A program made the translations under genes and the position numbers. The notes beneath the pieces were generated by a model. That model was given only the letters and a program-made list of their open reading frames with translations, searched no databases and was not told the DNA's origin. A stretch of DNA of 64,000 nt from positions 62,001-126,000 of the forward strand of contig JANYCZ010000059.1 in assembly GCA_025360015.1 (NCBI GenBank), given 5' to 3'. Each line of letters opens with the position of its first letter. Positions within the stretch are counted from its first letter, which is position 1. This document shows positions 2,252 to 12,699 of the stretch, in pieces. The stretch comes from Verrucomicrobiota bacterium. Its GTDB lineage: Bacteria; Verrucomicrobiota; Verrucomicrobiia; Verrucomicrobiales; Verrucomicrobiaceae.

Positions 2252-3997
2252 ATGCGCCGCATCATCACCAGACTGCTTCTTTCCTGGGCCCTCGTCGGCC
2301 CTTGGATGGGTATGCCAATGGCTTGGGGGCAGGAGCTGAGGCTGGAAGTGGTGCCGGTGGTGAATGGCGGCGCGCTGCGGCTGAATGAGCCGCTGTCTGT
2401 GGCGATGGCGGCACAAGTGACGCGGCTGGATTGTTTGCTCTCGGGACTGGCATTGCAGAGGCAGGATGGCAGGTGGGTGGAATCGCGGGACTGGTTTGCG
2501 TATTTGAGTGTGGCGGCGGGGCGGCTGACGGCGAAGGGCTCGGGCATCCCGGTGGGCGACTACAAGGGCATTCGTTTCCGCATTGGGGTGGATGAGGCCA
2601 CGAACAAGTCGGACCCGAATCGTTATGCGCCGGAGCATGCGCTCAATCCGCAGGTCAATGGGCTGCACTGGGGCTGGCAGGGCGGGTATATTTTCATGGC
2701 ACTGGAGGGGCGCTTGCCAGATGGCGGGTTCTCGTATCACATCGCCAATGCGGCGCAGTTGATGACGGTGGAGCTGCCGGTGGAATTTCGCGGGGGACGG
2801 CCGCTGACGGTGGCGCTGGAGCTGGATGTGCAGCGGGTGCTGGCGGGCATCGATTTTGCCAAGGATGGCACCTCGACGCATTCGCGCGCAGGGGATGTAC
2901 TGGCGGCGAAGCTGAAGGCCAACATTGAGCATGCGTTCCGGGTGCGCAGCGTGGATTACGACGTGTATCAGACGCCGGCGTTTGCCAGCGCACCTGCTCC
3001 CCTGCCCGCGGGTACGCATGCGCTGACGCCAGCCATGACGCAGCGTTTTCCAGAGGTGACGCTGCCTGCGGACAATCCGCTGACGCAGGAAGGCGTGGCG
3101 CTGGGGCGGCAGTTGTTTCATGACAGGCGGTTGTCGGGAAATGGCACACAGTCCTGCGCGTCCTGCCATGATGAAACGCATGCCTTTGCCGATGGCCGGC
3201 GCTTCAGCCCCGGCGCGGAGCAGCAGGCGGGGACGCGAAATGCGATGCCGTTGTTTAATCTGGCGTGGCAGCAGAGCTTCTTTTGGGATGGCCGTGCGGC
3301 CACGCTGCGTGAGCAGGTGCTGATGCCGATCCAGGACAAGCGGGAGATGCATGAGACGCTGCCGAATGTGATTGCGAAGCTGAGTGCGGATGAGGAATGC
3401 ACGACCGCGTTTGCCAGGGCCTTTGGCTCCGCAGGGATCACGTCTGAGCGGATCGCGAAGGCGCTGGAGCAGTTTCTGCTCACGCTCGTTTCGCAGGAGT
3501 CACGCTTTGACCGTGCGGCGCGCAAGGTGGCGGAACTGACGGAGAGCGAGAGGCGCGGGCTGCGGCTGTTTGTGACGGAGTTTGATCCGAAGCGCGGGCT
3601 GCGTGGCGCGGACTGCTTTCACTGCCATGGCGGCACACTGTTCACGAGCCAGCAGTTCGCGAACAACGGACTCGGCCTTTCCAGCGATGATCTGGGCCGC
3701 ATGGCGGTGACGCAGAACGCGGCGGATCGTGGCAAGTTCAAGACGCCCAGCTTGCGCAATGTCGCGCGCACCGCGCCCTACATGCATGATGGCCGTTTTG
3801 CCACGCTGGAGGAAGTGGTGGAGCACTACAGCGGCGGGGTGCAGCGCACGGACACGCTGGACCCGAACCTGGCCAAGCATCCGGAAGGAGGCATTCAATT
3901 CACGACTCAGGAGAAGGCGGACCTGGTGGCCTTTCTCAAAACGCTGACGGATGAGGGCTTCACTGGCACCGCCGCCGCCACCACCGCTGCGCGATGA
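2252..3997 (+). CDS. MbnP-like domain fused to MbnH/MauG-like diheme peroxidase
   Basis: A 581-residue exported protein (signal peptide about 1-26, cleavage near AWGQ). Residues about 27-232 match the MbnP family: an opening beta strand with PVVNGG, SGLALQ, PVGDYKGIRFRIGVD, NGLHWGWQGGYIF and LEGR, FSYHI. Residues about 265-570 are a bacterial cytochrome c peroxidase/MauG domain with two heme-binding sites, CASCH (302-306) and CFHCH (455-459), and the family motif APYMHDG (508-514). In methanotrophs MbnP and MbnH are separate; MbnH oxidises a Trp of MbnP to kynurenine, which takes part in copper binding. Here both are one chain. The MbnP part has a single Cys (61), so the four-Cys motif of many relatives is absent. 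The gene overlaps the next one by ATGA. Family assignment is strong; the function is inferred. Confidence 0.85.
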   Translation: MRRIITRLLLSWALVGPWMGMPMAWGQELRLEVVPVVNGGALRLNEPLSVAMAAQVTRLDCLLSGLALQRQDGRWVESRDWFAYLSVAAGRLTAKGSGIPVGDYKGIRFRIGVDEATNKSDPNRYAPEHALNPQVNGLHWGWQGGYIFMALEGRLPDGGFSYHIANAAQLMTVELPVEFRGGRPLTVALELDVQRVLAGIDFAKDGTSTHSRAGDVLAAKLKANIEHAFRVRSVDYDVYQTPAFASAPAPLPAGTHALTPAMTQRFPEVTLPADNPLTQEGVALGRQLFHDRRLSGNGTQSCASCHDETHAFADGRRFSPGAEQQAGTRNAMPLFNLAWQQSFFWDGRAATLREQVLMPIQDKREMHETLPNVIAKLSADEECTTAFARAFGSAGITSERIAKALEQFLLTLVSQESRFDRAARKVAELTESERRGLRLFVTEFDPKRGLRGADCFHCHGGTLFTSQQFANNGLGLSSDDLGRMAVTQNAADRGKFKTPSLRNVARTAPYMHDGRFATLEEVVEHYSGGVQRTDTLDPNLAKHPEGGIQFTTQEKADLVAFLKTLTDEGFTGTAAATTAAR

Positions 3998-6900
3998 AAC
4001 GTCTGCTGCTTGCGCTGCTGCTGACCAGCCCCCTTTCCCATGCGGATACTCTGACGCATGAGCAAAGCGATGATCTCTCCGCGGAAGCCGCGAGGCTCGC
4101 GCCGGCCGCGCAAATGCCGCAGACACAGGCACCCACACCAGCCCAATATGCCACACTCGGCCTGTGGAGTGCGGTCATCCCATGGACACCGCATATTCCA
4201 GTGACCTGTGCACAACTGCCGGACGGACGGCTGCTGACGTTTGCCTCCAGCCAGCGCACCAGTTTTCCTGCGGAAAACTTCACCTATGCGGCCACCTGGG
4301 ACTACCGCACGGGTGAATTTGTGGAGATCAACAACACGCGCCATGACATGTTCTGCGGGGGCGTCTCGCTGCTGCCAGACGGCCGCCTGATGGTGAACGG
4401 CGGAAACGACATCATCCGTGACTGCAGCCTGTTTGACTGGCGCACGAACACCTGGAGCGCAGCGCCGGACATGCAGGACCCGCGCTGGTACAACACCAGT
4501 GTGGCGCTGCCAGACGGCAGCGTGTTCACGGCCTCCGGCAGCGGCGGCAGCAACACGGCGGAACGCTGGGTGGAGAGCAGCGGCTGGACGCGCTACACGA
4601 ACATCAACTGGGCGCTGGCCACGGATGAAGGCGGCCTGAATTCCATCTGGCATCCGTTTCTGCATGTCGCGCCGGATGGCCGCATCGCGCATACCGGACC
4701 GACGCACACCATGCACTGGGTGGACACGAAGGGGAACGGTCAGTTCATCAGCGCCAGCGCCTTCATCCAGGGAGGTTATTATCCCAAAGACGGAGCGATG
4801 GTCATGTTTAACGAAGGGAAAATCCTCCAGGCCGGTGGTCACACCAATGGCACGGACTCCGCTTCGAAGTTTGCCTATGTCATCGACATCAACGGCAGCA
4901 ATCCCACGGTGACACCGACCAGCAGCCTCACGCATGCACGCACGTTTACCACGGGGGTGGTACTGCCCACAGGCGAAGTGATGGCCATCGGCGGCAACAC
5001 CTCACAGGTCGAATTCAGCGACGAGGGCAGCGTGCTGACGCCGGAAATCTGGAACCCCGTCACCGGCGAATGGCGCAGCGGAGCGGACATGCAAGTGCCG
5101 CGCAATTATCACTCGGTCGCCCTCCTGCTGCCCGATGGCCGGGTCTGGGCCGGTGGTGGTGGCCTGAGCGGGAACTCCGCGGACCATCAGGACGCACAGA
5201 TCTACACACCGCCCATGCTTTACAATGCGGATGGCACGCCAGCCACACGCCCAGAGATCAAGGAAACGCCGGAGGCTATAGGCCCCGGGATGGCGTTTAC
5301 GGTGCGTGCCACTGCTGGCGTGAAGCGCTTCACGTTCATCAAGCTGGCTTCGCTCACGCACTGCGTGACGAGTGATCTGCGTTTCCTCGAACTGCCATTC
5401 ACTGAACACGCGCCCGGTGCCTACGTGGTCCATGCGCACGCCAATTTGAATGTGCTGACACCGGGCTACTGGATGCTGTTTGCCATTTCACCCGATGGAC
5501 CGTACTCGGTTTCCAAAACCGTGCTGGTGGACGCCGCGCTCACGGACTCCATCAGCAATCCCGGGGCTCAATCCACCACGGTGGGCAAGGCAGCCCTGGC
5601 CACCAGCCTCAAAGCTCCAGGTTACAGTCCGGCATCACGCGTGTACTCCGCCACTGGTCTGCCGCCCGGCCTTGGGCTGGATGCCACGACGGGTCTCATT
5701 TCCGGCACGCCCACCAGCATCGGCCGCTACAGCGTGACCGTGACGGTCGATGACGCCAATCTTGAGCCGGCGTCTGCTACGTTCCTCTGGACGGTGCATT
5801 CCGATCTGGTGCTCGCACCACTGGCTCATGCGCCGGTGCCAGCGGGGACGGTGTTTGATTTCACCGCGTCATCCGCCGGGAGTGCCAAGCCGGAGTATCA
5901 GTGGGATTTTGGTGATGGCTCGCCTCCCTCTGACTTTAGCAGCAGCACGACGATCAGCAAAACGTACGCTGTACCTGGGCGCTACCTCGTCACGCTCACC
6001 GCGCGTGATGACACGGGCAGTGTGGTCACCGTGAGCTTTCATCAAGCGGTGCATGCCACGCTCACACCCACGCGTCCCACGGTTTCCAGCAGCATCGCCT
6101 ATCAGGTGCGCAGCGGTGCCAATGCGCGGCTGTGGGTGGTGAACCCGGACCAGGACAGCGTCACCATCTTTGATGCGGTGACGCGCACACGCAGCGGCAT
6201 TATTCCCACGGGAAGGGCACCGCGCAGTGTCGCCATCGCGCCGGATGGGCGGGCCTGGGTGGTGAACAGTGAAAGCGGCAGCATCGCGATCATCGGTGCA
6301 AATCTCAATGTGATGCAGACGATTCCGCTGCCGCGCGGATCGCGCCCCTTTGCCATCGTGTTTGATCCTGCGGGCACGGCAGCCTATGTTTCGCTGCAGG
6401 ACAGCGGCGTGGTGCTGAAGATCAATCCGGCGGTGCCCACGCAGTTCCTCGCCACCGCTGCGGTCGGCGGCAGCGTGCGGCATTTGTCCGTCAGTGCGGA
6501 TGGCACGCAGGTGTTTGCCACGCGCTTCATCACGCCGCATCTGCCCGGCGAGGAAACGGCCAATGTCATCACGCAGGATGGCAGCACGAAGTATGGAGGT
6601 GAGGTCAGCGTGATCGATGCCGCAAGCATGACGGTCAGCCGCACGATCATCCTCGCCCACAGTGATGATGCCGACAGTTCCATCGCCGGACGTGGCATCC
6701 CCAATTATCTCGGCCCCGCCGTGATCAGCCCGGACGGTACGAATGCGTGGGTGCCTTCCAAGAAGGACAACATCAAGCGCGGCCTGCTGCGGGATGGCAA
6801 CCCACTCACGCATGACAACTCGGTGCGCAGCATTACCTCGCGCATTGAGCTAATGACCGGGAGCGAGGACCTCGCGGCACGCATTGATTTCAATGATGCA

Positions 6901-9900
6901 GGCATTGCCAGCACGGCGGCGTACGATCCCAACGGCATGTATCTTTTCACCGCACTGGAAGGCAGCCGTGAGGTGGCCGTGGTGGATGCGTGGAACCGGC
7001 GCGAGCTGCTGCGCTTCACCGCCGGGCGCGCGCCCCAGGGCGTGGTGACCTCGCCGGATGGGCGGATGCTGTATGTGCACAATTTCATGGACCGCAGCGT
7101 GACGGTGCATGATGTGGGCGCGATCCTCAATGGAGCCGAAACGGCACCGCAGATGACTGCGCTGCTGAACTGCATCACCACGGAAAAACTGCCCGCCAAT
7201 GTACTGAAGGGAAAGCAGTTCTTCTATGACACACGCGACCAGCGCCTGGCACTGCAGCAGTACATCAGCTGCGCCTCCTGCCACAATGACGGCGATCAGG
7301 ATGGGCGCGTGTGGGACTTCACCAGCTTCGGTGAAGGCCTGCGCAACAACATCTCCCTGCGCGGTCATGCCACTCATGGACCGCCGCACTGGACGGGCAA
7401 CTTTGATGAGATCCAGGATTTTGAAGGGCAGATCCGCAGCTTTGCCGGTGGACTGGGGCTGATGAGTGACAACGATTTTCATTCGGGGACGCGTGATCAA
7501 CCGCTGGGGACGCCCAAGGCTGGCGTCAGCGAGGATCTCGATGCGCTGGCCGCCTACGTGACCTCTCTCACTACTGCTGGCAGCAGCCCGAACCGCAACA
7601 GCAATGGCGCGCTCACCGCCGATGCGCTGGCGGGGCAGCAGATCTTCCGTGAGCAGAACTGCGCGGCCTGCCATGGCGGCACGCGCTTCACCAACAGCGC
7701 GCTGAATGTGTTTGCGAACATCGGCACGATCAAACCTTCCAGCGGCCAGCGGCTAGGTACGCCCATCACCGGACTGGATGTACCCACGCTGCGCGGGCTG
7801 TGGAGCACCGCACCGTATTTGCATGATGGCAGTGCTGCGACTCTGGGCGCAGCCGTGCGCGCGCATCAGGGGGTGCTGCTTACCGACAGCGAGCTGTCTA
7901 AAGTCGTGGCTTTTCTCTCTCAAATTGACGACGCAGTCGTGCATGCCCCCTCACCTTTGAGCGTGGTGCTCGCCACCGCGAGCAGCAGCGTGAATGCTTC
8001 GTTTCCGGTGATCGGTTATTTGAGCGAAGCGGCCACCGGTTTCACCGCGAGCGACATCAGCATCACCGGCGGCACGCTGCGTGGTTTCAGCATCTCAGGC
8101 ACCCGCTTCAGCTTTTATGTGGAACCGACGGCGGGCCGTGTGAGCATCGGCATCGCCGCGAATGTGATGAGTGATTCCACCGGGCTGGGCAACCTTGCCT
8201 CGAACGTGCTCAGCATTGCCAACAGCAGCGATGTGACACCGCCGGTGATCACGCTGGCGACCCCGGCAGACACGGTGAGCTCCGCCTTTGAAGTCAGCCT
8301 GACCGCCAGTGAAAGCATCGGCGGATTGAGTGCGCCTGAATTCGCGGTGACGAACGGCAGCGCGGCCAATCTCACGGGCAGTGGGGCGAACTACAGCGTC
8401 ACCATTACTCCAACGGCCACGGGTGTTGTGACGGTGCAACTGCCTGCTGAAGCCGTCACCGATGCGGCTGAAAATGGGAGTGTCGCGTCCAACACGCTGA
8501 GCGTCACGTTTGCCCCGGCTAACAACGTGCAGCCCACGGTCACGCTTGCCACGGCTGCGACGGAGGTGAGTGGTGCGTTTGATGTGACGGCCACCTTCAA
8601 TGAGAACGTCAGCGGCGTGAGCGTGAATGATTTCATCGTCACCAACGGCAGTGCCGCAGCGGTCAGCGGCAGCGGTTCCTCTTATGTTGTCTCAGTCAAG
8701 CCAGCGGCGAATGGCGTGGTCACGATTCAGTTTTCTAAAACCATTGTGTCGGATGTCCTGAGCGTGAACTACACCGCGCCCGCAGATCCTGCACCCACCG
8801 TGCTGCTTGCTGCCGCAGGCAGCACCGCCAACGGCAGCTTCATGGTGAATGCGCAGTTCAGTGAAGCCGTCACGGATGTGAGCGCGGCGGATTTCATGGT
8901 CACCAATGGCAGCGTGACTGGGCTCAGCGGCAGTGATTCACTGTGGATCGCCACGATTCAAGCGGCCAGCGCGGGGGATGTGAGCGTGCGCCTGCCCGCC
9001 AATGCGGCGCAGGACAGTGCAGCGCAGGGCAGCAGCGCCTCGAACACGCTCGTCCTCGGGTTTGCGCCACCTGCACCGCTTACTGCGAAGATCAATTTTC
9101 AAAATGTGGGGGCACCCGTACCGCTGGGTTATGTGGCTGATGAAGGCGCGGTGTTTGATGAACGCAACGGGCTCAGCTTTGGCTGGAACAACGACCACAG
9201 CGCGCAGGGTCGAGACCGCAGTGCGGTGACGGAGCAGCGGCAGGACACTTTTATCCGCATGCAGGCTGGCGCGAAGTGGGAGATCGCCGTGCCGAATGGT
9301 GAATACGACCTCAGCATCAGCGTGGGAGATGCGACGGCGGAGAGCCGCAACACGCTGAACGTGGAAGGCACCTCCGTGTGGAGCGCCAGCGCCTGTGCTG
9401 CAGGTGCGTCCCAGGTAAAGTCTCTGCGCGTGATGGTGACGGATGGCCGCCTGACGCTGGACAATGGCAGTGCCGCTGGTGGTGCCACCGCGCTGGACTA
9501 TCTCGACATCGCGAGCAGCAGCAGTGTTGCTCCGGCCATACCCAATGGGCTCGCGGCGGATTACTTTGCCGGGATCAATTTTGATCAGCTCCGCTTCAGC
9601 CGCAGCGACCGCAGCATTGATTTCCGCTGGAGCGCGGCCGCGCCTGACGCACGGCTGGGTGCAGACAGTTTCAGTGTGCGCTGGCAGGGCGTGGTGATGC
9701 CGCGTCACAGCGAGCGGTATTCGTTTGCCACCACCAGCGACAACGGTGTGAGGCTGTGGGTGAACGGGCAACTGCTGATCAACCACTGGAACAAGCATGC
9801 GGAAGAAACCAATACCGCTGAAATTGATCTGCAGGCAGGCGTGCCCGCCACGATGCGGATGGAGTTCTTTGCCAATGATGGCGATGCGGTGGTGCGCCTG

Positions 9901-11334
9901 CTGTGGGCGAGCACGAGCCAGCCGCTGGAAGTGATCCCGGCGGATCGCCTCTTGATCCATGCGCCAGGGGAGCCTGCCGTCCCCTACCCTTCCACCTTTG
10001 CCGACTGGATCGCCAGCGGCCGCAGCAATGGCGCGCAAACGACGGCCACCACGAATGCCGATGGCGATGATCTGCCGGACCTGCTAGAATATGCGCTGGG
10101 TGGCAGCGCGGGGAGCGGCATCAACGCGGGCGACGTGCTGCGACTGGGCACGCGCAACGGCCACGTGAGCGCCAGCGTGATGCGCCCTCAAGGGCTGAGC
10201 GATTTGACCTGGGTGTTGGAGGGCAGCGCAGATTTGAAAACCTGGACGACACTCACGGTCAGCGCGGTGGTCAGTGACAACGGCGATGGCACTGAGACTT
10301 TGCGCTGGTACAATCTGGATGCGGCGGGCGGCCCAAGCATGGTGCGTCTGAAAGTGCAATGCACTAGCACGGGTGATAGTGCAGCCACCGCTGCTTTTGC
10401 GTGGCAGCAGTGGACCACGCAGAACGGCACGCAGTCGATCGGGGTGAATGTGGTGAACACGCCGGTCTTTGCCGGGTATGCGCACTCCGCTACCGAGACC
10501 GCGCTTTATTTGGCCGATGCTTCGTATCTTCCGGGCGTGGTGGATGCGGATGCGAGCTACTATGTGGAAGTGACCGGTGGCGTGTATGCGGGCCACCATT
10601 GGGATCTCGCGCACATCGGTGATCGGACGCTGCTCATCGACAGCGAATCCTCTGGCAACACACTGGCCGCACTGCCCGCCGACATCGCGGGGTCACGCAT
10701 TGCAGTGCGCAAGCACATCACCCTCGGGCAGGTGTTTGATAAAGGCGTCCTGCGAGGCTCGAACAATCCTGCGGGCGCAGATCAGGTGCAGTTTCTGAGC
10801 GCGACGAACAGCTTCAAAACGTACTGGCTGCTGCAGGCCGGGGCCTATCATCAATGGATCGCGGCGGGCGATGCCACGCTGACCAGCGCTGACAATCTCA
10901 GCATTCCCCCCGGTACGGGTGTGATGCTGAAAAGCAGCGGCACGACGCCGCGCCCGCTGCTGATCGCTGGGCAGGTGCGCACGACGCCCTTTGCGAGGGT
11001 GCTGGTGCCGGGTTCCAGCCTGTTCGCCAATCCGTGGCCTCTGGCGGCGTCTCCGACGAGTCTAAACATGACGAGCGCCGTGGTCTTTACCGCCACCACG
11101 AGCCCCGCCACGGCCGATGCGCTGCAGTTTTGGAAAGGCGACAGCCAGTCGGGGTCCAGCGGCTATGATGGCTACTGGTTCTTCCAAAGCCCGAAGACCG
11201 CCGCGCTGTGGGTTTCCACGCGGGATGCGACGCTGCACTCGCAAAATGATCTGGCGCTGTTTAAGGCGGGTCGTGCGGCGATCTTGGTACGGCGGAGCAT
11301 GGCAAGCAGTGTGTGGATGGTGCCTGCGCCGTGA
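3994..11334 (+). CDS. Giant secreted copper radical oxidase with propeller and diheme cytochrome modules
   Basis: 2446 residues with a signal peptide (1-17). Residues about 50-515 form a galactose/glyoxal-oxidase-type kelch propeller plus DUF1929 domain. The expected copper-radical residues are present: Cys121 (MFCGG) and Tyr166 (RWYN) for the Tyr-Cys cofactor, Tyr372-His373 (RNYHS) and His456 as copper ligands. Then: putative Ig domain (about 517-600), PKD domain (605-690), YVTN-type propeller (700-1045), a diheme cytochrome c/peroxidase-like module with CASCH (1093-1097), CAACH (1223-1227) and APYLHDG (1273-1279), four related Ig-like repeats (about 1315-1690), a malectin-like module (1695-1840), a PA14 domain (1850-1990) and a C-terminal region of a kind seen in other large Verrucomicrobia proteins. 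The start overlaps the stop of the MbnP-MbnH gene, so the two are translationally coupled. The substrate is unknown; PA14 and the malectin-like part suggest carbohydrate. Confidence 0.85.
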   Translation: MKRLLLALLLTSPLSHADTLTHEQSDDLSAEAARLAPAAQMPQTQAPTPAQYATLGLWSAVIPWTPHIPVTCAQLPDGRLLTFASSQRTSFPAENFTYAATWDYRTGEFVEINNTRHDMFCGGVSLLPDGRLMVNGGNDIIRDCSLFDWRTNTWSAAPDMQDPRWYNTSVALPDGSVFTASGSGGSNTAERWVESSGWTRYTNINWALATDEGGLNSIWHPFLHVAPDGRIAHTGPTHTMHWVDTKGNGQFISASAFIQGGYYPKDGAMVMFNEGKILQAGGHTNGTDSASKFAYVIDINGSNPTVTPTSSLTHARTFTTGVVLPTGEVMAIGGNTSQVEFSDEGSVLTPEIWNPVTGEWRSGADMQVPRNYHSVALLLPDGRVWAGGGGLSGNSADHQDAQIYTPPMLYNADGTPATRPEIKETPEAIGPGMAFTVRATAGVKRFTFIKLASLTHCVTSDLRFLELPFTEHAPGAYVVHAHANLNVLTPGYWMLFAISPDGPYSVSKTVLVDAALTDSISNPGAQSTTVGKAALATSLKAPGYSPASRVYSATGLPPGLGLDATTGLISGTPTSIGRYSVTVTVDDANLEPASATFLWTVHSDLVLAPLAHAPVPAGTVFDFTASSAGSAKPEYQWDFGDGSPPSDFSSSTTISKTYAVPGRYLVTLTARDDTGSVVTVSFHQAVHATLTPTRPTVSSSIAYQVRSGANARLWVVNPDQDSVTIFDAVTRTRSGIIPTGRAPRSVAIAPDGRAWVVNSESGSIAIIGANLNVMQTIPLPRGSRPFAIVFDPAGTAAYVSLQDSGVVLKINPAVPTQFLATAAVGGSVRHLSVSADGTQVFATRFITPHLPGEETANVITQDGSTKYGGEVSVIDAASMTVSRTIILAHSDDADSSIAGRGIPNYLGPAVISPDGTNAWVPSKKDNIKRGLLRDGNPLTHDNSVRSITSRIELMTGSEDLAARIDFNDAGIASTAAYDPNGMYLFTALEGSREVAVVDAWNRRELLRFTAGRAPQGVVTSPDGRMLYVHNFMDRSVTVHDVGAILNGAETAPQMTALLNCITTEKLPANVLKGKQFFYDTRDQRLALQQYISCASCHNDGDQDGRVWDFTSFGEGLRNNISLRGHATHGPPHWTGNFDEIQDFEGQIRSFAGGLGLMSDNDFHSGTRDQPLGTPKAGVSEDLDALAAYVTSLTTAGSSPNRNSNGALTADALAGQQIFREQNCAACHGGTRFTNSALNVFANIGTIKPSSGQRLGTPITGLDVPTLRGLWSTAPYLHDGSAATLGAAVRAHQGVLLTDSELSKVVAFLSQIDDAVVHAPSPLSVVLATASSSVNASFPVIGYLSEAATGFTASDISITGGTLRGFSISGTRFSFYVEPTAGRVSIGIAANVMSDSTGLGNLASNVLSIANSSDVTPPVITLATPADTVSSAFEVSLTASESIGGLSAPEFAVTNGSAANLTGSGANYSVTITPTATGVVTVQLPAEAVTDAAENGSVASNTLSVTFAPANNVQPTVTLATAATEVSGAFDVTATFNENVSGVSVNDFIVTNGSAAAVSGSGSSYVVSVKPAANGVVTIQFSKTIVSDVLSVNYTAPADPAPTVLLAAAGSTANGSFMVNAQFSEAVTDVSAADFMVTNGSVTGLSGSDSLWIATIQAASAGDVSVRLPANAAQDSAAQGSSASNTLVLGFAPPAPLTAKINFQNVGAPVPLGYVADEGAVFDERNGLSFGWNNDHSAQGRDRSAVTEQRQDTFIRMQAGAKWEIAVPNGEYDLSISVGDATAESRNTLNVEGTSVWSASACAAGASQVKSLRVMVTDGRLTLDNGSAAGGATALDYLDIASSSSVAPAIPNGLAADYFAGINFDQLRFSRSDRSIDFRWSAAAPDARLGADSFSVRWQGVVMPRHSERYSFATTSDNGVRLWVNGQLLINHWNKHAEETNTAEIDLQAGVPATMRMEFFANDGDAVVRLLWASTSQPLEVIPADRLLIHAPGEPAVPYPSTFADWIASGRSNGAQTTATTNADGDDLPDLLEYALGGSAGSGINAGDVLRLGTRNGHVSASVMRPQGLSDLTWVLEGSADLKTWTTLTVSAVVSDNGDGTETLRWYNLDAAGGPSMVRLKVQCTSTGDSAATAAFAWQQWTTQNGTQSIGVNVVNTPVFAGYAHSATETALYLADASYLPGVVDADASYYVEVTGGVYAGHHWDLAHIGDRTLLIDSESSGNTLAALPADIAGSRIAVRKHITLGQVFDKGVLRGSNNPAGADQVQFLSATNSFKTYWLLQAGAYHQWIAAGDATLTSADNLSIPPGTGVMLKSSGTTPRPLLIAGQVRTTPFARVLVPGSSLFANPWPLAASPTSLNMTSAVVFTATTSPATADALQFWKGDSQSGSSGYDGYWFFQSPKTAALWVSTRDATLHSQNDLALFKAGRAAILVRRSMASSVWMVPAP

Positions 11335-11447: not shown

Positions 11448-11955
11448 GGAGGTGTTCCGAGCGCGATATTAGAGCTTCATTGCCGCTGCGCAAGGACGGC
11501 TTTCAGGGTGAATCAGGCAGCTTTGGCGTTTGCCGAAACCGATTTCAGAAAAGCGAGCGTGGAGACGCTCGGCGGCGGCTTGAGGACAAGCCGCCCTACC
11601 TCACGCTGGTCATGCGTAAGCGCAGCTCGATGAAGGAGAGCCAAGAAGGAAAGCCTATTATCTCCATGGAAAGGCGGCCATCGTGACCCGCCATGGGGTA
11701 ACGAGTTTTGCGATGTGCCGCAAAAAGGGAGTTGGGGGCGGTTTCATACTCCAAAGTCGGCCTCAATCCGATGAGCCCGCATTTTTTTTTGCGCAGGGTG
11801 CGGCAAGTTGAAATGATGCTGCATGCCTTGATTTTGCAGGAAAGCTAGGCTCTAAAGATTGCTTTATGGTGTTGAAATTATGGAAATGTGAAATATTTGT
11901 TCTTGCAATAGATTCCATAATTAGCATAATGGCTTTGCAATTTAAGAAAACTATT
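11448..11955. other. Intergenic region between tRNA-Gln and the P-loop ATPase gene
   Basis: About 500 bases without a convincing gene. The first part is GC-rich and holds the double hairpin at 11555-11594. From about 11850 to 11955 the DNA turns very AT-rich and probably contains the promoter of the next gene, including TAATTAGCATAATGG. The frames through this stretch have no family signature. Confidence 0.5.
11555..11594. repeat. Two adjacent hairpins, intergenic
   Basis: GAGCGT and ACGCTC (11555-11570) form one stem. GGCGGCTT and AAGCCGCC (11573-11594) form a second with perfect 8-bp arms. There is no T tract, so this is not a standard terminator; it looks like a repetitive intergenic palindrome. 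Confidence 0.6.
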
Positions 11956-12699
11956 ATGAAGAAGCTCATCCTTATCCAGAACGACTATCCCGGCACCGGC
12001 AAGAGCACCCTGGCTCTCTGCTTCCACCGCTACCTCCAGCAGTATGGTGTCACCCATCAACTCCTCGCCCTCACGGAAGAGGATTCCCATGATCATATGG
12101 GCGCCACGGCTCTCGATGCCAGTTCACTGACACCCCGAGCGTTCCTTGCCCATGTGGACGCCTCCCCCCTGACCATTTTGGACGTGAGCACGGGGCTCGG
12201 CGAATTCTTCAACAAGTTCTATCAGGGCTGCGAGATGAACGAGATTCTCCAAGCAGCGGGCGTGGCTGTCTCAGTGGTGCTGCCGGTGACGGCGGATCGT
12301 GAGAGCTTTGATTCGGTCACCGATGCAGCGGAAGTTTACTCGGACAACGCCGAGTACCTGATCGCCCACTTGGTGACGAGCTGCTATGATGAAGACGACA
12401 AGGTCTGGGACACCAGCTATGCCGCACGGGTGATGGACATGTTTGAAGCCGTGGAGCTGCACATCCCGGAAATCACCTTCCAGGTGGAACTGAGCGCCGA
12501 GCGCATGAGCCTCGACACCGCCCTGCAAATGGACGATGCGGAAGAACGCCTGGGCCGTGAATACACCAAATGGCAGCGCCGCGTGATGGGCCAGGTGGAC
12601 AGCGCCCGCCAGTATCTCTTTGGTGACGCCTTCCGCCCGACGATGGCACCGAAATCCTTGAAAGCGATGCGCAAAGCGAAGACAAAGCTGGCAGCGTGA
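11956..12699 (+). CDS. P-loop ATPase of unknown role
   Basis: A 247-residue protein starting at the ATG at 11956 (MKKLILIQND); the open frame continues upstream but only through AT-rich promoter-like DNA. A Walker A motif (PGTGKST) lies within the first 20 residues. A hydrophobic strand ending in Asp (LTILDVSTGLG) resembles the Walker B or switch strand of ParA/StbB-like ATPases. The C-terminus is basic (KSLKAMRKAKTKLAA). ParA-type proteins move cargo or plasmids, but there is no partner ParB-like gene here and no plasmid sign. It stands alone between tRNA-Gln and 10-bp repeats. The family level is uncertain. Confidence 0.65.
   Translation: MKKLILIQNDYPGTGKSTLALCFHRYLQQYGVTHQLLALTEEDSHDHMGATALDASSLTPRAFLAHVDASPLTILDVSTGLGEFFNKFYQGCEMNEILQAAGVAVSVVLPVTADRESFDSVTDAAEVYSDNAEYLIAHLVTSCYDEDDKVWDTSYAARVMDMFEAVELHIPEITFQVELSAERMSLDTALQMDDAEERLGREYTKWQRRVMGQVDSARQYLFGDAFRPTMAPKSLKAMRKAKTKLAA

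Follow-up and report, generated by a model that had tools for sequence, protein, structure and literature searches.

Within the 64,000-nucleotide stretch of DNA from a Verrucomicrobiota bacterium that was analyzed here as a whole (the window), a gene for a fused MbnP-MbnH protein (MbnPH; ORF1) overlaps the gene for a large protein headed by a predicted copper radical oxidase (ORF2), and our data indicated that the fusion and the oxidase are very probably functionally linked. The link is drawn from the conserved gene order, from the separate position of the oxidase-linked MbnPH set, and from the co-occurrence of both genes even where they are unlinked. On balance, we lean toward a reading in which ORF1 is a dedicated copper-supply or maturation partner that delivers copper to ORF2, an exported copper enzyme; structure matches, conserved residues, pairing, co-occurrence, and the precedent of Streptomyces GlxA all point in this direction.

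The gene pair and the MbnPH fusion

ORF1 (581 aa; 2252-3997), with a signal-peptide-like stretch at its N terminus, and the multidomain ORF2 (2446 aa; 3994-11334), which begins with its galactose-oxidase head, lie on the forward strand, as do all features given below. Both frames were open as an earlier note on this DNA had described, and the start of ORF2 inside the stop codon of ORF1, also reported there, was read directly from the junction gcgATGAaacg, in which TGA (3995-3997) and ATG (3994-3996) share an ATGA overlap (3994-3997). No published description of an MbnPH plus oxidase system was found among open-access PMC papers, and the open-access papers on galactose oxidase with MauG or in Verrucomicrobiota, or on the "metallo-mystery pair," were silent on a system of the ORF1/ORF2 type; since the coverage was that of open-access PMC, a description elsewhere, including one of MbnPH fusions, is possible.

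The N-terminal part of ORF1, which had been proposed to be MbnP, was confirmed as such by profile and by fold. PF20243 (MbnP) matched residues 27-209 in Pfam (E = 1.1e-32; 113.9 bits; cut-off, 27), and in the structure model of ORF1 (mean pLDDT, 81.5) the MbnP domain (residues 27-215; 2330-2896) resembled 7l6g (Z, 17.9; root mean square deviation [RMSD], 2.9; 200 residues). A profile of the MbnP half compared with solved structures returned 7l6g as the sole match, at a weak E of 0.01, and aligned W140 with the first Trp of the WNW (WxW) motif of that structure. By this alignment, W140 of the ORF1 motif W140-G-W142 (2669-2677) is the predicted kynurenine position. W140 was kept in 49/50 oxidase-linked and 91/91 other MbnPH proteins and H163 in all of them, the WxW motif was present in 47-49 of the 50 oxidase-linked proteins, and H139, H163, and H210, all conserved in the MbnP half, are candidate copper ligands. 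ORF1 scored 35.5 bits against the full-length cut-off of 140 of TIGR04052, the MbnP equivalog in NCBIfam; the MbnP half is a member of the Pfam MbnP family and not of this equivalog.

The C-terminal half is an MbnH/MauG-type diheme domain (residues 261-575; 3032-3976), matched by CCP_MauG (PF03150; E = 6e-56) in Pfam and, in the structure model, by 6e1c (Z, 27.6; RMSD, 2.5; 295 residues), with the heme c motifs CASCH (residues 302-306; 3155-3169) and CFHCH (residues 455-459; 3614-3628). Pfam, sequence, and structure model thus agree with the earlier description of one protein joining an MbnP-like part to a diheme domain with these two motifs. The NCBIfam model TIGR04039 (MbnH-type, hypothetical equivalog) matched with E = 3.7e-74 and 249.8 bits, below its full-length cut-off of 362.85, and this half is a divergent member of the wider MbnH/MauG family. 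The heme-binding residues (C302/C305/H306 and C455/C458/H459) were conserved in the MbnPH alignment together with W345, Q355, E365, and Y526, which we take, also by their spacing, to occupy the places of MauG W93, Q103, E113, and Y294. Residues of this kind at these places suggest the features of a Trp-oxidizing maturase.

The oxidase head and the diheme module of ORF2

ORF2 comprises a head, an Ig-like domain, a PKD domain, a YVTN propeller, a diheme domain, Big_12 repeats, a PA14 domain, and a C-terminal domain; the PKD, propeller, Big_12, PA14, and C-terminal parts were absent from the earlier note. The head (residues 49-515; 4138-5538; PF09118, PF07250) was recognized by phmmer, with residues 50-512 reaching E = 1e-90 to 9g8h and 6e-70 to 1gof. 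Alignment to these solved structures placed Cys121 (crosslink Cys; 4354-4356), Tyr166 (crosslink/radical Tyr; 4489-4491), Tyr372-His373 (copper ligands; 5107-5112), and His456 (copper ligand; 5359-5361) on the ligand and cofactor columns of galactose oxidase, consistent with the five copper/radical residues predicted previously; in galactose-oxidase numbering, these columns are presumably C228, Y272, Y495, H496, and H581. All aligned Verrucomicrobiota heads had the five residues (counts of 87-90 in 92 rows, the remaining rows being gapped), with Cys121 in all 89 heads aligned there, and the stacking Trp of fungal galactose oxidase (W290 region) was missing from these heads. Judged from sequence, the Cys-Tyr pair and the Tyr/His/His ligands make the head an AA5-like copper radical oxidase. 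The identification of ORF2 as GlxA was rejected because its score was far below the NF052501 equivalog cut-off (141.5 versus 800 bits); PF21110 (GlxA family) did not match ORF2 and was equally silent in every control, so that its silence is uninformative.

The YVTN-type propeller (residues 691-1045; 6064-7128; TIGR02276) was structurally closest to hydrazine synthase beta (5c2v_B; Z, 38.0), with 1l0q at a Z of 37.2. It is followed by a diheme c domain (residues 1051-1325; 7144-7968) with the motifs CASCH (residues 1093-1097; 7270-7284) and CAACH (residues 1223-1227; 7660-7674), which was similar in sequence to hydrazine synthase gamma and to cytochrome c peroxidases (CCPs) and has H1132-W1133 among its conserved residues. 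The domain was modeled at low confidence and without hemes, and the structure matches listed are those of the propeller only and are uninformative on the diheme part. In the alignment, His1291 (7864-7866) takes the place of MauG Tyr294 and is the predicted axial ligand of the second heme; it was invariant in alignment A5 (H701 of the first row). Unlike ORF1, the ORF2 diheme domain has no Gln/Glu pair in register (W+10/+20), and the residue set of diheme cytochrome c peroxidases (Gln/Glu, with Met or Tyr at the second heme) was not found in it. His1291 and the out-of-register Gln/Glu make a bis-His electron-transfer heme likelier than a peroxidase, and an electron-transfer domain is the better fit for this part of ORF2. 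The diheme domain of the earlier note therefore stands, whereas its peroxidase label does not, given His1291, the missing Gln/Glu register, and the likeness to hydrazine synthase beta-gamma. ORF2 as a hydrazine synthase was itself rejected, as it remained far below the cut-off of the beta-gamma family NF052342 (66 versus 1250 bits).

Downstream lie the PA14 domain (residues 1851-1983; 9544-9942; PF07691, E = 6.8e-19) and a C-terminal domain of about 300 aa (10444-11331), which is common to three other giant frames of the host genome. Frames of about 10,900 and 8,000 aa carry this domain (G000:C33:69686-70354 and G000:C26:43074-43748), and it is possibly a surface-sorting domain. In another genome (G106; L071:10155-16000), an MbnPH of 773 aa shares a 4-base overlap with the gene upstream of it, which encodes 1175 aa or more and has an ORF2-type C-terminal domain.

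Distribution and gene order of the pair

Among 240 genomes of the order (Verrucomicrobiales), PF09118 was found in 48 (59 copies) and PF20243 in 112 (144 copies), the latter mostly in frames of about 570-650 aa, the size expected for the fusion. MbnP lay upstream on the same strand for 32 of the 59 oxidase copies, and further pairs were split over contig ends. The 4-base overlap recurred in 21 of 30 non-redundant pair loci, and in 27 of them the genes were at most 30 bases apart. The adjacent pair was present in four families of the order, and a scan of named genomes revealed it in the cultured Brevifollis gellanilyticus and Roseibacillus persicicus as well as in metagenome-assembled genomes (MAGs) of Prosthecobacter and Opitutaceae and in one Spartobacteria MAG. 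The survey thus extended the gene order beyond a single strain to other Verrucomicrobiota, and a strain-specific accident was rejected on the recurrence in four families, Opitutaceae, and Spartobacteria. Across 388 genomes sampled from the whole phylum, the sole oxidase outside the order was the paired Opitutaceae copy; oxidase homologues of other phyla had no heme motifs, and no MbnPH was detected within the surrounding DNA examined.

In the tree of oxidase heads, pairing extended to the deep branches; it was lacking in one clade, made up of eight solo copies. The second oxidase giant of the host (L006:7083-17492, G000:C67; 3469 aa), with galactose-oxidase, propeller, and diheme parts and no neighboring MbnPH, belongs to an oxidase clade without MbnPH linkage. 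No other neighbors of the pair were conserved past close relatives, and membership of the pair in a larger conserved cluster was rejected for this reason. The flanking genes in the window, encoding an exported protein with a PEP-CTERM-like end (925-1911) and a P-loop-like, MKKLILIQNDYPGTGKST-containing protein (11866-12699), are syntenic in close relatives without the intervening oxidase gene.

MbnPH types and co-occurrence with the oxidase

In a tree of 63 MbnPH proteins, the oxidase-paired copies all fell on the same side (95*), opposite the CusAB-linked copy of the host. This second host MbnPH (L005:8447-14922, G000:C34) lies directly downstream of CusA-/CusB-like efflux genes and beside an Ig-repeat/multicopper-oxidase-like giant, a differing copper context for the other type. 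In a larger FastTree of 142 rows, most pairs fell into a 44-row clade, and an 11-row standalone group nested among the basal pairs; the oxidase type was defined as the 44-row clade plus seven basal rows added by hand, six of which are pairs. The oxidase-linked set is thus an imperfect clade in the larger tree, which counts against the dedicated-partner reading.

Oxidase-type MbnPH was present in 47 of 49 oxidase genomes. The exceptions were G056, whose 539-aa oxidase has neither propeller nor hemes, and G123 (93% complete), in which the oxidase was present and no MbnP was detected; the latter also counts against a dedicated partner. Conversely, three genomes, all 70-85% complete, had oxidase-type MbnPH without a detected oxidase, and none of the 60 genomes carrying only other MbnPH types had an oxidase. 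In about ten oxidase genomes, the oxidase-type MbnPH was present and the genes were unlinked; among the genomes examined, G085, G109, G152, G069, and G045 showed the neighborhood of the window with the oxidase missing beside MbnPH, and each keeps an oxidase elsewhere. The Fisher p-value for co-occurrence was 1e-43, a value that overstates independence because the genomes are related; the test is also partly circular because the paired rows define the type, and its informative part is the unlinked cases. The earlier term "self-contained" for this system was too strong, given the partners unlinked in about ten genomes and the solo second oxidase of the host. That MbnPH and the oxidase are kept or lost together suggests that MbnPH prepares or supplies the oxidase copper.

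The same observations bear on the rather unlikely alternative that the two genes are merely co-regulated, with MbnPH serving general copper acquisition or storage and sharing an operon with the oxidase for the same copper condition. MbnP/MbnH pairs are indeed known from many settings in which no such oxidase is present (PMC3621798), and the neighbors of the second MbnPH of the host would suit such a general role. Against this, oxidase-linked MbnPH form a type of their own whose presence follows that of the oxidase, also in genomes where the two genes lie apart; the other MbnPH types show no such tie. The positions specific to the oxidase-linked type (D60, W81, T186, D237, Q240, and R265) are spread over MbnP, the linker, and MbnH.

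Discussion

In the proposed role of ORF1 as copper-supply partner, the MbnH half, using peroxide, would oxidize W140 in the MbnP half of the same protein to kynurenine and so enable that half to bind copper. ORF1 would then hand this copper to the radical-copper site of ORF2, where the Cys121-Tyr166 cofactor could form, and the mature head would oxidize an alcohol or aldehyde with O2, yielding H2O2. Part of this H2O2 could in turn feed MbnH, and the propeller-diheme module of ORF2 would probably exchange electrons with the head or an external acceptor, a classical peroxidase function being less likely. Kynurenine formation, copper binding, and oxidase chemistry are proposed here by analogy with characterized homologues; the handover of copper to ORF2, the feedback of peroxide to MbnH, and the function given to the ORF2 hemes are purely our inference. 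We know of no experiment in which any MbnP was shown to pass copper to an oxidase. In galactose oxidase, copper and O2 are enough to form the Cys-Tyr cofactor, and a chaperone may therefore be dispensable. A canonical copper chaperone within the locus was rejected, the three SCO1/SenC genes of the host lying on other contigs, where they are a potential alternative copper supply. The kynurenine copper sites of MopE and CorA consist of two His, a water, and a kynurenine around Cu(I) (PMC3912023), and the Cu(I) held by the CorA site makes a storage role also possible. More tentatively, the loop may be closed, with the H2O2 made by the client driving formation of the kynurenine copper site in MbnPH as a single-client metallochaperone.

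It is also conceivable, although doubtful, that the head is a dehydrogenase that passes electrons via the diheme domain to an external acceptor and makes little H2O2, the oxidant for MbnH coming from elsewhere. The His at the distal position of the second heme, the absence of a MauG-type Gln/Glu register in the ORF2 diheme domain, the resemblance of the propeller-diheme module to hydrazine synthase beta-gamma, and the head without the stacking Trp of fungal galactose oxidase all favor this chemistry. However, characterized radical copper oxidases of the same fold are generally known to use O2, and the diheme model is of low confidence and lacks hemes. This reading concerns the chemistry of ORF2, and MbnPH could supply copper under it as well.

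An improbable alternative is that the MbnH half modifies ORF2, for example, a Trp or Tyr of its head or diheme domain, while the MbnP half docks or senses copper. The Cys-Tyr cofactor of galactose oxidase is generally known to need copper and O2 only, and the WxW motif kept in nearly all oxidase-linked MbnPH makes the protein's own Trp the obvious substrate, even though Trp, Gln, Glu, and Tyr of the MauG set are all present in the MbnH half, ORF2 offers conserved diheme residues including H1132-W1133, and MauG, as is generally known and discussed in PMC3912023, is the maturase of another protein. Still less probable is a peroxide defense in which the diheme domains of ORF1 and ORF2, as peroxidases, clear the H2O2 that the head produces, with copper loading of only incidental importance. 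Both proteins carry a diheme peroxidase-type domain, and Streptomyces DtpA consumes the H2O2 of GlxA (PMC4736821). However, at the position where turnover peroxidases have Met, ORF1 has the Tyr seen in MauG/MbnH and ORF2 has His, and this reading gives no reason for MbnH being fused to a conserved MbnP.

With the survey tying MbnPH at the gene level to one defined copper enzyme, the role of MbnP/MopE-type kynurenine-copper proteins outside methanotrophs can be put to the test, as a matter of client and chaperone, in the cultured Brevifollis gellanilyticus and Roseibacillus persicicus. In the open-access literature, we found no earlier report in which a propeller-diheme module is part of the same polypeptide as a radical copper oxidase. 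The pair may represent a second, unrelated answer to a task that in Streptomyces falls to Sco and DtpA. If the closed loop proves true, the oxidase would be the first client assigned to an MbnP-type protein, and copper would reach a galactose-oxidase-type site by a new route.

ORF1 resembles MbnP/MbnH of Methylosinus trichosporium (7l6g, 6e1c), MopE/SACCP, and CorA/CorB in its folds, WxW motif, heme motifs, and MauG-type residues. In contrast to MbnP/MbnH, it is a single polypeptide, as in nearly all copies of the order, and, in contrast to the methanobactin and methanotroph copper loci of MbnP/MbnH, one MbnPH type goes with a radical copper oxidase. It shares its fold (Z, about 23.5) and catalytic residues with MauG but falls below the TTQ_mauG cut-off (192 versus 444 bits), and its fused partner is MbnP and not methylamine dehydrogenase. 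ORF2 shares head homology and all five copper/radical residues with galactose oxidase and other AA5 enzymes (1gof, 9g8h), whereas the ORF2-type head stands at the N terminus of a protein of 2200-3500 aa with propeller and hemes. It is also similar to hydrazine synthase beta/gamma (5c2v) in its propeller (Z, 38) and diheme sequence, and beta-gamma fusions exist (NF052342), but here the propeller-diheme module is joined to a galactose-oxidase head. In Streptomyces, GlxA maturation at low copper requires Sco and the peroxidase DtpA (PMC4736821), so that, as with ORF1-ORF2, a bacterial radical copper oxidase has copper-carrying and heme peroxidase-type partners; however, Sco and the DyP peroxidase are unrelated to MbnP and MbnH, and GlxA is without the propeller-diheme fusion that ORF2 possesses.
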